Origin: Opitutus sp. GAS368
GTDB lineage: Bacteria > Verrucomicrobiota > Verrucomicrobiia > Opitutales > Opitutaceae
DNA length: 64,000 nucleotides
Direction: 5' to 3'
Assembly: GCF_900104925.1 (NCBI RefSeq)
Contig: NZ_LT629735.1
Coordinates: 652,291 to 716,290 of the forward strand
Below the pieces are notes generated by a model. The model did no database searches. It saw only the letters and a list, made by a program, of their open reading frames with translations, and was not told the DNA's origin. Below are positions 56,852 to 60,808 of this stretch, piece by piece (position 1 is the first letter of the stretch; the number at the start of each line of letters is the position of its first letter). Both the position numbers and the translations under genes were made by a program.

Positions 56852-59800
56852 ATGTCCGCCCTTCCCCCCACCGCCGCTGAAACCGCGCTCCGCCGACTGC
56901 TGGCCGAGCGCGTGGCCATCCTTGATGGCGCGATGGGCACGACCATCCGCAGCTACAACCTCACCGAGCAGGATGCGCGTGGCGATCGCTTCAAGGATGC
57001 GCCCAAGGATCTCAAGAACAACGGCGACATCTACTCCCTCACCCGCCCGAATGAGATTGGCGACATCCACCGGCGCTTCCTCGAGGCCGGGGCCGACATC
57101 ATCGAGACCAATACCTTTTCCGCGACCGCCATCGGCCAGAGCGAGTTCTTCATCGAGGACCCGCGCGAGAAGGGCGGCCGCAAGGACCCGGCGTTCTACC
57201 AAAGCGTCATCGGGAACAAATTCCTCGAGACCCTCGCGCACGACATCAACTTCCAGTCCGCGCGCCAATGCCGCGAGTGGGCCGACCGCATCGCCAACGC
57301 CACGGGCAGGCGCCGCTACGTTGCGGGCGCCCTCGGGCCGCTGACCGTCTCGCTCTCCAATTCCCCCGACGCCGACGACGCCGGCTTCCGCGTCGTCACC
57401 TTCGACCAGGTGAAGACCGACTATCGCCGCCAGGTGCGCGCCCTCATCGCCGGTGGCGTGGACCTGCTGCTCGTCGAGACCATCTTCGACTCGCTCAACG
57501 CCAAGGCCGCCCTTGTCGCCATCGAAGAGATCTTCGCCGAGGACAAAATCAAGCTGCCGCTCATGATCTCGGCCGCCGTCGGCCGCGGCGGCGAGACGAT
57601 GATCTCGGCGCAGACCGTCGGCGCCTTCTGGAATGCCGTGCGCACGCACCGGCCCCTCGCCGTCGGCCTCAATTGCTCGATCGGCCCCGACCTCATGCGC
57701 CCGTTCCTCGAGGAGCTGGGCCAGAAGTCCGACACCTTCATCTCCTGCTACCCAAATGCGGGCCTGCCGAATCCGCTCACGGAAACCGGCTTCGACCTGA
57801 AGCCCGCCGACATGGCCCGCTTCATGGGCGAGTTCGCCGGCAGCGGCCTGCTCAATATCGCGGGTGGCTGCTGCGGCAACACCCCCGAGCACATCGCCGC
57901 CATTGCCGAGTCCCTCAAGCCCCAGCCGGCCCGCAAGGTCACGATCGTAAAGCCCGAGGTTGTTGGAGGGCCCGCGTCCCTGCGGGCCGCTTCTGCCGTG
58001 GAGGGCTCAGCTCCAGCTGAGCCGCCGCGCCCCCTCCAGCTGTCGGGTTCACTGCCATTCACCCAACAGATCGGGTCGTTCATGATGGTTGGCGAGCGCA
58101 CCAACGTCGCCGGCTCGCCGAAGTTCGCCAAGCTCGTCAAGGCCGGCAACTATGAGGAGGCCGTCTCCGTCGCCCGCCAGCAGGTCGACAACGGCGCCAA
58201 CGTCATCGACGTCTGCATGGACGACGGCCTGATCGACGGCGTCGCGGCCATGACGCGCTTCCTGCAGCTCATCGGCAGCGAACCCGAGATCGCCAAGGTC
58301 CCGGTCATGGTCGACTCCTCCAAGTGGGAGGTCATCGAGGCGGGCCTGAAATGTCTTCAAGGCAAGGGCATCGTAAACTCCATCTCCCTCAAGGAGGGCG
58401 AGGCCAAGTTCCTTGAGCAGGCGCGCATCATCCTCCGCTACGGCGCCGCCGTGGTCGTCATGGCCTTCGACGAGAATGGTCAGGCCGCCTCCTACGCCGA
58501 GAAGATCCGCATCTGCGAGCGCGCCTACCGCCTGCTCGTCGACACCGTGGGTTTCCCGCCCGAGGACATCATCTTCGACCCGAACATCCTCACCGTCGGC
58601 ACCGGCATCGAGGAGCACAACAACTACGCCGTCGATTTCATCGAGGCCACGCGCTGGATCAAGACCCACCTGCCCCACGCCAAGGTCAGCGGCGGCGTCT
58701 CCAACGTCTCCTTCAGCTTCCGCGGCAACAATCCCGTGCGCGAGGCCATGCACGCGGCCTTCCTCTACCACGCCATCAAGGCCGGCATGGACATGGGCAT
58801 CGTCAACCCGTCGATGCTCGAGGTCTACGAAGAGGTGGACAAGGAGCTGCTCGTCCTCGTCGAGGACGTCCTCCTCAACCGACGCCCCGACGCGACAGAA
58901 CGCCTCGTCGAACACGGTGAGAAGCTCAAGGCCCAGGCTGGAGGGCCCGCGTCCCTGCGGGCCGCCGCCGACATCGCCGTGCTCGAGGCCTGGCGCACGG
59001 GCACCGTCGAGGCCCGCCTGTCGCACGCTCTCGTGAAGGGCATTGACGCCTGGATCGACCAGGACACGGAGGAAGCCCGGAAGAAATACGGCAAACCGCT
59101 CAACATCATCGAGGGCCCGCTGATGGACGGTATGCGCGTCGTCGGCGATCTCTTCGGCGCCGGCAAGATGTTCCTCCCGCAGGTCGTGAAGTCCGCCCGC
59201 GTCATGAAGAAGGCCGTCGCCTATCTCCAACCCTTCATGGAGGCCGAGAAGGCCGCGCTCGTCGCCGCCGGCGGCATTGCCAAGGCCCAGGGCCGCATCG
59301 TCATGGCCACGGTCAAGGGCGACGTGCACGACATCGGCAAGAACATCGTCGGCGTCGTCCTCGCCTGCAACAATTACGAGGTCATCGACCTCGGCGTCAT
59401 GGTGTCGTGCGAAAAGATCCTCGCCGCCGCCAAGGAGAAGGGCGCCGACATCATCGGCCTCTCCGGCCTCATCACGCCGTCGCTCGACGAGATGGTGCAC
59501 AACGCCAAGGAAATGGAGCGCCAGGGCCTGAAGATCCCGCTGCTCATCGGCGGCGCCACCACGTCGGCCGCGCACAACGCGGTGAAGATCGCCCCGCATT
59601 ACTCCGAGCCTGTCGTCCACGTGCTCGACGCCTCGCGCGTCATCGGCGTCGTCTCCAAGCTGCTCAGCTCCGACCACAAGCCCGCTTATGTCGCCGAGGT
59701 GAAGGCCACGCAGGAGCGCCAGCGCACCGAGTTCGCCGACCGCAAGGGCGCCCGCAAGCTCCTCTCCCTCCCCGAAGCCCGCAAGCGCGCCCAGCCGACG

Positions 59801-60808
59801 GATTGGGCGACAGTGGATATCCCGAAGCCGGAATTCCTCGGCACAAAGGTCTTCTCTTCTGGAGGGCCGGTCTCCGCACCGGCCGCTTCCGTGGAGGGCC
59901 CAGCTCCAGCTGGGCCGATTCAGCCGCTCACCCTCGCTGAAATCGCAGATTTCATCGACTGGGGCCCGTTCTTCTCCACGTGGGAGTTGCACGGTCGCTT
60001 CCCCGACATCCTGAAGGATCCGGTCGTCGGCGAGGAGGCCACCAAGCTCTATGCCGAGGCGCAGGCGATGCTGAAGCGCATCATCGCGGAAAAACGCTAC
60101 ACCGCCAAGGCTGTCATCGGCTTCTGGCCGGCCAATGCCGTCGGCGACAGCGTCGAGGTCTATGCCGACGAGGCGCGTTCAAAGGTACTCAAGACCTTCC
60201 ACTTCCTCCGCCAGCAAAACGAGAAGGCCGCCGGTCAGTTCAACCACTGCCTGGCCGACTTCATTGCCCCGAAGGATTCTGGCCGCATCGACTATCTGGG
60301 CGGCTTCGCCGTCACGGCCGGCCATGGCGTCGAGGAATTCGCCGCGTCGTTCCGCGCGAAGCACGACGACTTCAACGCCATCCTCGCCCAGGCGCTCGGC
60401 GACCGCCTCGCCGAGGCCCTCGCCGAGCTGATGCACAAGAAGGCCCGCGACTATTCCGGCTACGGCAAGACCGAGAATCTGGAGATGAAGGACATCATCC
60501 GGGAAAAATACCGCGGCATCCGCCCCGCCCCCGGCTATCCCGCCTGCCCCGACCACACGGAGAAGCCACCGCTGTTCGACCTGCTCAACGCACCCGAGGC
60601 CACCGGCATCACGCTGACGGAAAGCAACGCCATGTTCCCCGCCAGCAGCGTCAGCGGCCACTACTTCAACCACCCCGATTCAAAATACTTTGCCGTCGGC
60701 AAGTTGGCGAAGGACCAAGTCGAGGACTACACCCTCCGCAAAGATCAGTGGCTGGAAGTCTCGGAGCGCTGGCTTGCTCCCTACCTCGATTACGAACCCA
60801 CGCCCTGA
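56852..60808 (+). CDS. metH: Cobalamin-dependent methionine synthase
   Basis: A 1318-residue full MetH, about 90 residues longer than the E. coli enzyme. It methylates homocysteine from methyl-tetrahydrofolate via methylcobalamin. Residues 1-365 are the homocysteine domain with zinc cysteines in GLNCSIGP and GGCCGNTP. Residues about 400-690 are the pterin-binding domain ([13 protein letters not shown]). The B12 cap and binding domains follow at about 710-990 ([20 protein letters not shown]). The SAM-dependent reactivation domain is about 1025-1318 ([22 protein letters not shown]). All three interdomain linkers contain an in-frame palindromic repeat (residues about 371-396, 696-705, 1003-1022), which explains the extra length. 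Catalytic residues look intact. Confidence 0.97.
57964..58038. repeat. In-frame compound palindrome in metH linker 1
   Basis: TGGAGGGCCCGCGTCCCTGC starts hairpin 1 (GGCCCGC/GCGGGCC); a second TGGAGG begins hairpin 2 (GGCTCAGCT/AGCTGAGCC); CCTCCA closes it. Exactly 75 bases, 25 codons. Same family as the intergenic copy at about 30952-31038. It separates the homocysteine and pterin domains. Confidence 0.92.
58939..58965. repeat. In-frame half palindrome in metH linker 2
   Basis: TGGAGGGCCCGCGTCCCTGC followed by GGGCC: hairpin 1 of the family only. It lies between the pterin domain and the cobalamin cap domain and encodes GGPASLRAA. Confidence 0.88.
59860..59916. repeat. In-frame palindrome in metH linker 3
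   Basis: TGGAGGGCCGGTCTCCGCAC with hairpin GGCCGGT/ACCGGCC, then TGGAGGGCCCAGCTCCAGCT with hairpin GGCCCAGCT/AGCTGGGCC. It is 57 bases or 19 codons and lies between the cobalamin domain and the reactivation domain. Confidence 0.9.

Follow-up and report, generated by a model that had tools for sequence, protein, structure and literature searches.

Palindromic repeats at the domain joints of methionine synthase in Opitutaceae look like REP-type mobile DNA in tolerated landing sites

The three palindromic segments within the cobalamin-dependent methionine synthase gene (metH) of Opitutus sp. GAS368 very probably represent REP-type elements that insert widely, are probably moved by RAYT (REP-associated tyrosine transposase) proteins, and survive in genes only as in-frame copies within tolerant joints or loops. 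The repeats are present in some species and absent from others, the same joints hold differing repeats, and copies within genes are rare; we infer that those copies that survive are neutral. The gene lies within the window, a 64,000-nucleotide stretch of DNA that contains the following features:

56852..60808, + strand: metH, cobalamin-dependent methionine synthase, 1318 aa; ORF matching NCBIfam NF007024 and TIGR02082
57964..57989, + strand: REP unit 1a, Hcy:Fol linker; strict pattern and model match (6.1e-9)
57999..58024, + strand: REP unit 1b, of the other stem type, peptide reading VEGSAPAEP; strict pattern and model
58026..58038, − strand: degenerate inverted REP end closing the site-1 composite; inverted repeat
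58939..58964, + strand: REP unit 2, Fol:Cap linker, peptide reading GGPASLRAA; strict pattern and model
59860..59885, + strand: REP unit 3a, N-terminal arm of the activation module; strict pattern, model, and 2o2k alignment
59892..59917, + strand: REP unit 3b; strict pattern and model
30952..31037: intergenic REP composite, with units at 30952-30977 (+), 30986-31011 (+), and 31012-31037 (−)

Five in-frame 26-nt palindromic units are spread over three places in metH: site 1 (57964-58038) contains two direct units and a degenerate inverted end, site 2 a single unit, and site 3 (59860-59917) two units. The three repeats reported in the initial annotation are recovered as matches to both the strict pattern and the model, and the intergenic copy that it placed at about 30952-31038 corresponds to a unit, a second unit, and an inverted unit; what it described as a single 75-base palindrome is instead a composite of units.

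Each unit consists of TGGAGGG, a variable stem-loop, and GCCG, for a total of 26 nt with a 7-bp stem. The strict pattern returned 99 matches in the 4.15 Mb single-contig genome, as compared with 25 for the same pattern reversed. A covariance model, for which six rows came from the window and 18 from genome-wide pattern matches (24 distinct rows in all), identified at least 115 matches at E≤1, in at least 74 clusters, and at least 100 at E≤0.001; these counts are lower bounds, with 150 first-pass candidates scored. Compensatory change in the stem is strong among the 24 rows, which were preselected as copies of the element (covariation 0.516, vs. 0.145 for shuffles, with none of 500 shuffles reaching the observed value), and the TGGAG tag is common to the 24 seed rows, having been a criterion for their selection. 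Both orientations occur in 37 of the 70 clusters analyzed; in this genome, the copies within DusB and AlaRS are, like MetH site 2, single units. A contig search for the exact unit returned 51 stretches, all titled Opitutaceae, Opitutus, Oleiharenicola, Lacunisphaera, or Verrucomicrobia; Lacunisphaera and Oleiharenicola are members of the Opitutaceae. These data suggest that the MetH segments are copies of a REP-type element, defined by a TGGAG tag and a variable 7-bp stem and often found as head-to-head pairs, that has probably spread through the genomes of one Opitutaceae genus.

Pfam matches in the MetH protein cover the Hcy (aa 23-354), pterin (414-652), cap (720-792), B12 (814-908), and activation (1028-1297) domains, and the REP residues (aa 371-396, 696-705, and 1003-1022) fall into the gaps at 355-413, 653-719, and 909-1027, the last of these lying between the B12-binding and Met_synt_B12 matches. 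Sites 1 and 2 lie in genuine interdomain linkers. Both flanks of site 3 align to 2o2k, a human activation-domain chain; site 3 is therefore a loop within the N-terminal arm of that module, and the initial placement of the repeats "exactly between" modules does not extend to this site. Unit 2 (aa 696-705) aligns with KEDPGKRED of 8SSC, the full-length thermophilic enzyme, a stretch that by our reading equates with the Fol:Cap Linker II (Lys649-Asp657). In the passages of PMC10567725 that treat the linkers, Linker II was left unmodelled because density was lacking, and Linker I (Hcy:Fol) is described as zipping both domains together. The AlphaFold model of aa 1-719 is fair (pLDDT 77.9, pTM 0.81), with values below 50 at site 1 (aa 366-389) as well as in three other stretches, and unit 2 lies close to its cut end. 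Confidence is low for the model of aa 640-1318 (pLDDT 66.3, pTM 0.49), so the loop seen at site 3 (aa 1006-1020, below 50) carries little weight.

Of the 57 genomes searched (our own included), 50 gave MetH matches at E≤0.001, some of them to less than a full MetH, and 21 of the MetH-bearing genomes belong to the same genus, counting our own (G000). Codon-level comparison yielded 17 readable rows for linker 1 (including G000 and one row of another genus), 17 for linker 2, and 14 for site 3, plus five outgroup rows; a GGAG-type REP occupies linker 1 in one row, linker 2 in five, and site 3 in four. Linker 1 is empty and short in 6 of 17 rows (G014, G018, G009, G006, G002, and G008), and other repeats or palindromes were recognized by eye in 10 more rows at linker 1 and in 7 more at site 3. 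Linker 2 has no GGAG REP in 12 of its 17 readable rows; a common KDQK linker is found in the REP-free G014, G003, and G004 where G000 has the REP. Relatives lack precisely these segments, which is what a check proposed in the initial annotation had looked for, and the empty or replaced linkers bear out the idea that a dispersed element inserted at tolerated joints. A use of the linkers as such finds no comparable backing, since their content turns over between species and linker 1 can be empty altogether. Given that relatives hold different repeats or none there, the MetH joints resemble places where the landing of mobile DNA is tolerated, and not conserved functional parts.

Labels for linker content (heptamer, GTAG, CGTC-like, or "other") were assigned by eye. 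On this basis, G011 carries a GTAG...CTAC pair in linker 1 and G012 a GTAG pair at site 3, heptamer arrays occupy linker 1 of G003, G004, and G015, and heptamers are present at site 3 of G007. The linker-1 insert of G012, labelled CGTC/RPE-like, had no match outside metH in the partial genome sequences searched. The G020 linker-1 fragment, tallied as GTAG, starts with TGGAG before a CCGGGGTC stem and stops at the contig end. In G011, a second palindrome is nested within the linker-2 REP, and a heptamer-like insert lies between the cap and cobalamin domains, outside the three sites. Among 15 non-GGAG inserts, 7 recur outside metH, 3 match metH alone, and 5 have no match within the partial sequence of each genome that was searched. 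The initial annotation had placed the repeat nowhere inside a domain, which holds for MetH of G000; in six relatives (G014, G003, G012, G016, G007, and G005), a hairpin loop of the activation domain contains another insert, each with CCCTGAGC, and the element itself lies inside Pfam matches in AlaRS and exosortase here and in YbeY and Mqo in relatives. Parsimony places the minimum number of content changes at 10, 3, and 6 for linker 1, linker 2, and site 3, respectively, or at least 19 in total, given states set by eye and a single tree from MetH without linkers that contains some weak forks.

At site 3, G000 and G014 differ at 1 position in ~58 nt (by hand count), as compared with 86.9% identity over the whole of metH; this REP is more conserved than the surrounding gene, an observation that we count against the favored reading. 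In G011, site 3 again consists of two units, the first with a different stem. Both the conservation of site 3 and the changed stem in G011 would be accounted for by gene conversion between copies or by an insertion at a later time.

That the linkers are ancestral peptides resembling the repeat by chance or through base composition is barely conceivable. The repeat is GC-rich and open in most frames, as such a resemblance would allow, and for the same reason the open frame of every copy, remarked on in the initial annotation, is not informative by itself: 84-100% of 109 units are open in any given frame. However, the 26-nt units in MetH are identical to intergenic ones and have paired stems, and the empty alleles in relatives refute a chance origin, with the replaced alleles also speaking against it.

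The element recurs in other coding sequences, both here (AlaRS, DusB, and exosortase) and in relatives, as a second proposed check had anticipated. Six of the 70 clusters analyzed in this genome are in genes, three of them in MetH and one each in exosortase, DusB, and AlaRS; four weak clusters (E 0.26-0.81) of the 74 were left out, and the remaining 64 were judged to be outside genes, all but the four described next from codon scores alone. Four clusters with a coding signal from a spanning-ORF score were rejected: 3550693 sits between ORFs ending at 11082 and starting at 11155 of L086, 2946449 is upstream of PadR, 1073286 falls in the gap separating two + strand ORFs or at its edge, and 331271, with no Pfam match, was dropped by eye. 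If most of the genome is coding, 6 of 70 is far below random expectation, and it is reasonable to infer, as initially proposed, that insertion is very frequent and that selection acts as the filter. The sample from relatives comprised 133 distinct clusters (the best 30 loci each of G016, G011, and G012, plus the 51 exact-match stretches, excluding clusters <100 nt from a locus end), of which 15 passed the coding filter; two without a Pfam family (L161 and L237) were dropped. The 13 left are in MetH (6), YbeY (2), and Mqo, DusB, exosortase, an FAD/Fe-S oxidoreductase, and OGG (1 each).

Taken as distinct gene sites, these copies amount to 10, of which four are inside a Pfam match (exosortase, AlaRS, Mqo, and YbeY), four between matches (the three MetH sites and OGG), and two after the last match (DusB and the FAD/Fe-S protein). 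Computed probabilities of 0.008 for the linker placement and 2.5e-8 for 3 of 6 sites falling in MetH assume uniform insertion, a coding density of 0.88, and no tolerance, and we do not take them as proof. Across 19 genomes, the linker of DusB shows the same pattern as MetH: by eye, a GGAG REP is present in six (G000, G014, G007, G012, G020, and, in degenerate form, G009), palindromes of other kinds, heptamers, or longer sequence left unclassed in G010, G004, G017, G018, and G015, and a short linker in eight. In the AlaRS loop, G000 and G018 carry the REP, and other genomes, G012 among them, have heptamer-like sequence.

The leading unit is read as xxT GGA GGx, giving Gly-Gly, at 8 of the 10 distinct gene sites (P=0.0034 vs. 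1/3), and all 7 asymmetrical gene sites are in the sense orientation (P=0.0078). Stops close the Gly-Gly phase more often than the other phases (84% of the 109 units open, vs. 91-100%), so openness is not the reason for this bias. These biases, together with the same phase in all six genomes with a GGAG REP in DusB, are what might be expected if the repeats were useful as peptide, the GGPxS or EGSAPAEP reading serving as a flexible linker whose phase and orientation are kept by selection. We consider this possible but rather unlikely: related genomes manage without the repeats, and the same joints hold other repeats with other peptides; OGG (WRAQLPLGRG) is read in another phase and YbeY in a third; and ten sites are a small and partly related sample, in which target-site preference could yield the same bias. 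Neutral survival of REP-type insertions, in its plain form, nevertheless predicts neither the phase and orientation biases nor the over-representation of MetH, which accounts for 3 of 6 sites here and 6 of 13 in the relatives' sample.

A role in the mRNA, with hairpins at domain borders slowing ribosomes and aiding co-translational folding, appears improbable. The three metH sites do hold windows ranked 1, 7, and 3 of 265 by folding energy, and empty linker 1 ranks 14 to 26 of ~257 in G009, G006, and G002; however, it is often of ordinary rank (158 of 270 in G014 and 62 of 259 in G018). Linker 2 ranks 1-17 in 11 of 11 genes tested, with or without a REP, indicating that the REP is not what structures it. 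Sliding-window folding gives no support for an mRNA hairpin function beyond the REPs' own hairpins.

Across the genus, the model matches between 0 and 145 times per genome at E≤0.001. REPs of the GGAG type are found in MetH of G000, G014, G011, G012, G016, and G007, which have 52 to 126 matches, and among congeners only in those with at least 52; the two readable MetH linkers of G004 (145 matches) contain no such REP, nor does the readable part of MetH in genomes with ≤31 matches. A PF01797 gene was not detected in G013, G008, G019, G002, or G006 (0, 2, 17, 0, and 0 matches, respectively), and PF01797 genes are present in G001, G005, and G015, with zero matches. REP load and transposases therefore do not track closely, G019 combining matches with no detected PF01797 gene and G001, G005, and G015 the opposite.

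RAYT transposition is the likely mover of the element, since hairpins with the same tag flank RAYT genes here. RAYT-like genes (NF047646) were identified in this genome at L003-L008 and L126, with 3 of 7 above the curated cut-off. Inverted GGAG-tagged hairpins, with stems unlike the MetH type, flank the RAYTs of L007 (here) and of L120 and L124 (relatives; L124 scores just below the NF047646 cut-off). Hairpins with a GTAG tag flank L004 and L005 and occur on a single side of L006. The exact MetH-type unit was not found flanking any of the 36 Y1_Tnp loci searched. Two candidates for such an arrangement were rejected: the L002 match (6.6e-5, with a shortened loop) is >1 kb from the transposase match, and the L122 matches are to a GTAG-tagged relative. 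In G018, a RAYT (matching model positions 4-145 of 146; 75.5 bits vs. a cut-off of 80) lies within the 1160-aa alaS ORF, bounded by 51-nt inverted repeats that are 90% complementary. At 588 nt, the segment (L316:2208-2795) has a length divisible by three, and alaS matches lie on either side. Barring an assembly error in G018, this suggests that a housekeeping gene can take up RAYT-bearing elements in frame.

Insertions into genes would nearly always be purged by selection, leaving in-frame survivors where extra residues are tolerated, such as the interdomain linkers of MetH and some surface loops; once in place, their sequence may be freely swapped for other repeats or lost. A further possibility, which we hold tentatively and at somewhat below an even chance, is that a few joints and loops (the MetH linkers, the DusB linker, and the AlaRS loops) are recurrent landing pads for several unrelated repeat families and a RAYT-bearing transposon, all entering in frame with a phase fixed by selection or target choice, such that repeats provide a continuing source of new interdomain linkers in the family. 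The comparison turns the anecdote of a REP in a gene into a case in which the same joints are empty, filled, or differently filled in ~17 genomes, with DusB across 19 genomes as its replicate. It opens linker creation by mobile repeats, phase selection, and RAYT site choice to measurement, and the RAYT transposon that sits in frame within a synthetase gene can serve for direct tests.

In the REPIN, a mobile REP doublet, two inverted REPs move as a unit; inverted pairs are abundant here, whereas the copies at MetH site 2 and in DusB and AlaRS are single. In-frame REPs in proteins are already known from Rickettsia and Opitutus terrae. The Rickettsia palindromic elements (RPEs), which the initial annotation aptly offered as an analogy, are likewise palindromic repeats in frame in many unrelated ORFs, as described in parts of PMC3733652 and of PMC10969869, where in-frame RPEs are reviewed; however, RPEs are ~150 bp (PMC10969869) as compared with 26 nt, RPE-4 and RPE-6 are classed as CGTC repeats (PMC3733652), and the likeness drawn here is one of description.

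The GTAG REP superfamily, as set out in sections of PMC3733652 for O. terrae and others, is associated with RAYT and consists of short palindromes with an unpaired 5′ tag and head-to-head dimers, mostly intergenic. The 26-nt unit falls within its size range (a 20-40 bp palindrome with a stem of 5-13 bp) and is likewise dispersed, mainly intergenic (64 of 70 clusters outside genes), and found as inverted dimers. Degenerate tags are described (GYAG, GYRG, GTRG, and GTMG, with GTGG in most O. terrae GTAG-20; PMC3733652), but the tag here is GGAG (TGGAG) in place of the unpaired 5′ GTAG, and we therefore call the element REP-type with a variant tag and not a GTAG REP. GGAG-tagged versions of the REPtrons, or RAYT transposons, of the same source (PMC3733652), in which a RAYT lies between inverted REPs, also occur in the genus; none was found with the exact MetH-type stem, and the alaS copy is in frame with its host gene. 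REPs inside ORFs have been reported before, with the GTAG type most numerous in O. terrae, where both uvrA genes are hit twice, and linkers or loops have been proposed as their locations (PMC3733652, in part). "Methionine synthase" has 0 occurrences in the main text of that paper, and among the top matches in the open-access literature, none describes MetH linkers that contain repeats or an alaS gene that contains a RAYT. The portions of PMC3733652 concerned with site comparison treat a few shared genes, such as Xanthomonas recB; relative to these, the comparison of empty, filled, and refilled alleles across a genus is an addition.

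The alanyl-tRNA synthetase gene (alaS) of the congeneric genome G018 carries a 588-nt transposon placed in frame, which includes a REP-associated tyrosine transposase (RAYT) domain and 51-nt inverted repeats. The two alaS matches in this genome are the halves of one transposon-interrupted gene (locus L316).

L316:2208-2795 (G018:C5), transposon, 588 nt, inside the alaS ORF L316:780-4262, minus strand

A loop of the synthetase (AlaRS) also contains the 26-nt TGGAG-tagged palindromic unit (REP), common to G018 (L316) and the genome of the window (L090). Despite this AlaRS-loop copy, the covariance model of the unit returned just two hits in G018 at E<=0.001; its presence in the loop of so REP-poor a genome may reflect gene transfer or an old relic. 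AlaRS of two other relatives, G009 and G005 (L308/L312 and L309/L314), has about 60 additional residues at approximately the same place as the RAYT insert of G018.

In metH of six related genomes (G014, G003, G012, G016, G007, and G005), the activation domain has in-frame extra residues where a short turn of a hairpin would otherwise stand, and the DNA of every one of these inserts contains CCCTGAGC. Within the window, a further apparent intergenic palindrome (TGTCATTCTGAACGAAGTGAA...) at 31100-31210 lies next to the REP composite and has a CCAAGGCTTCGGCGG segment.

The homocysteine module of MetH is encoded by a separate ORF in 11 related loci (L019, L021, L023, L024, L029, L031, L035-L038, and L048), where identity is approximately 42-48% for this ORF versus 60-77% for the remainder. 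At these loci metH may have been split, or re-fused, at linker 1, the Hcy:Fol joint.
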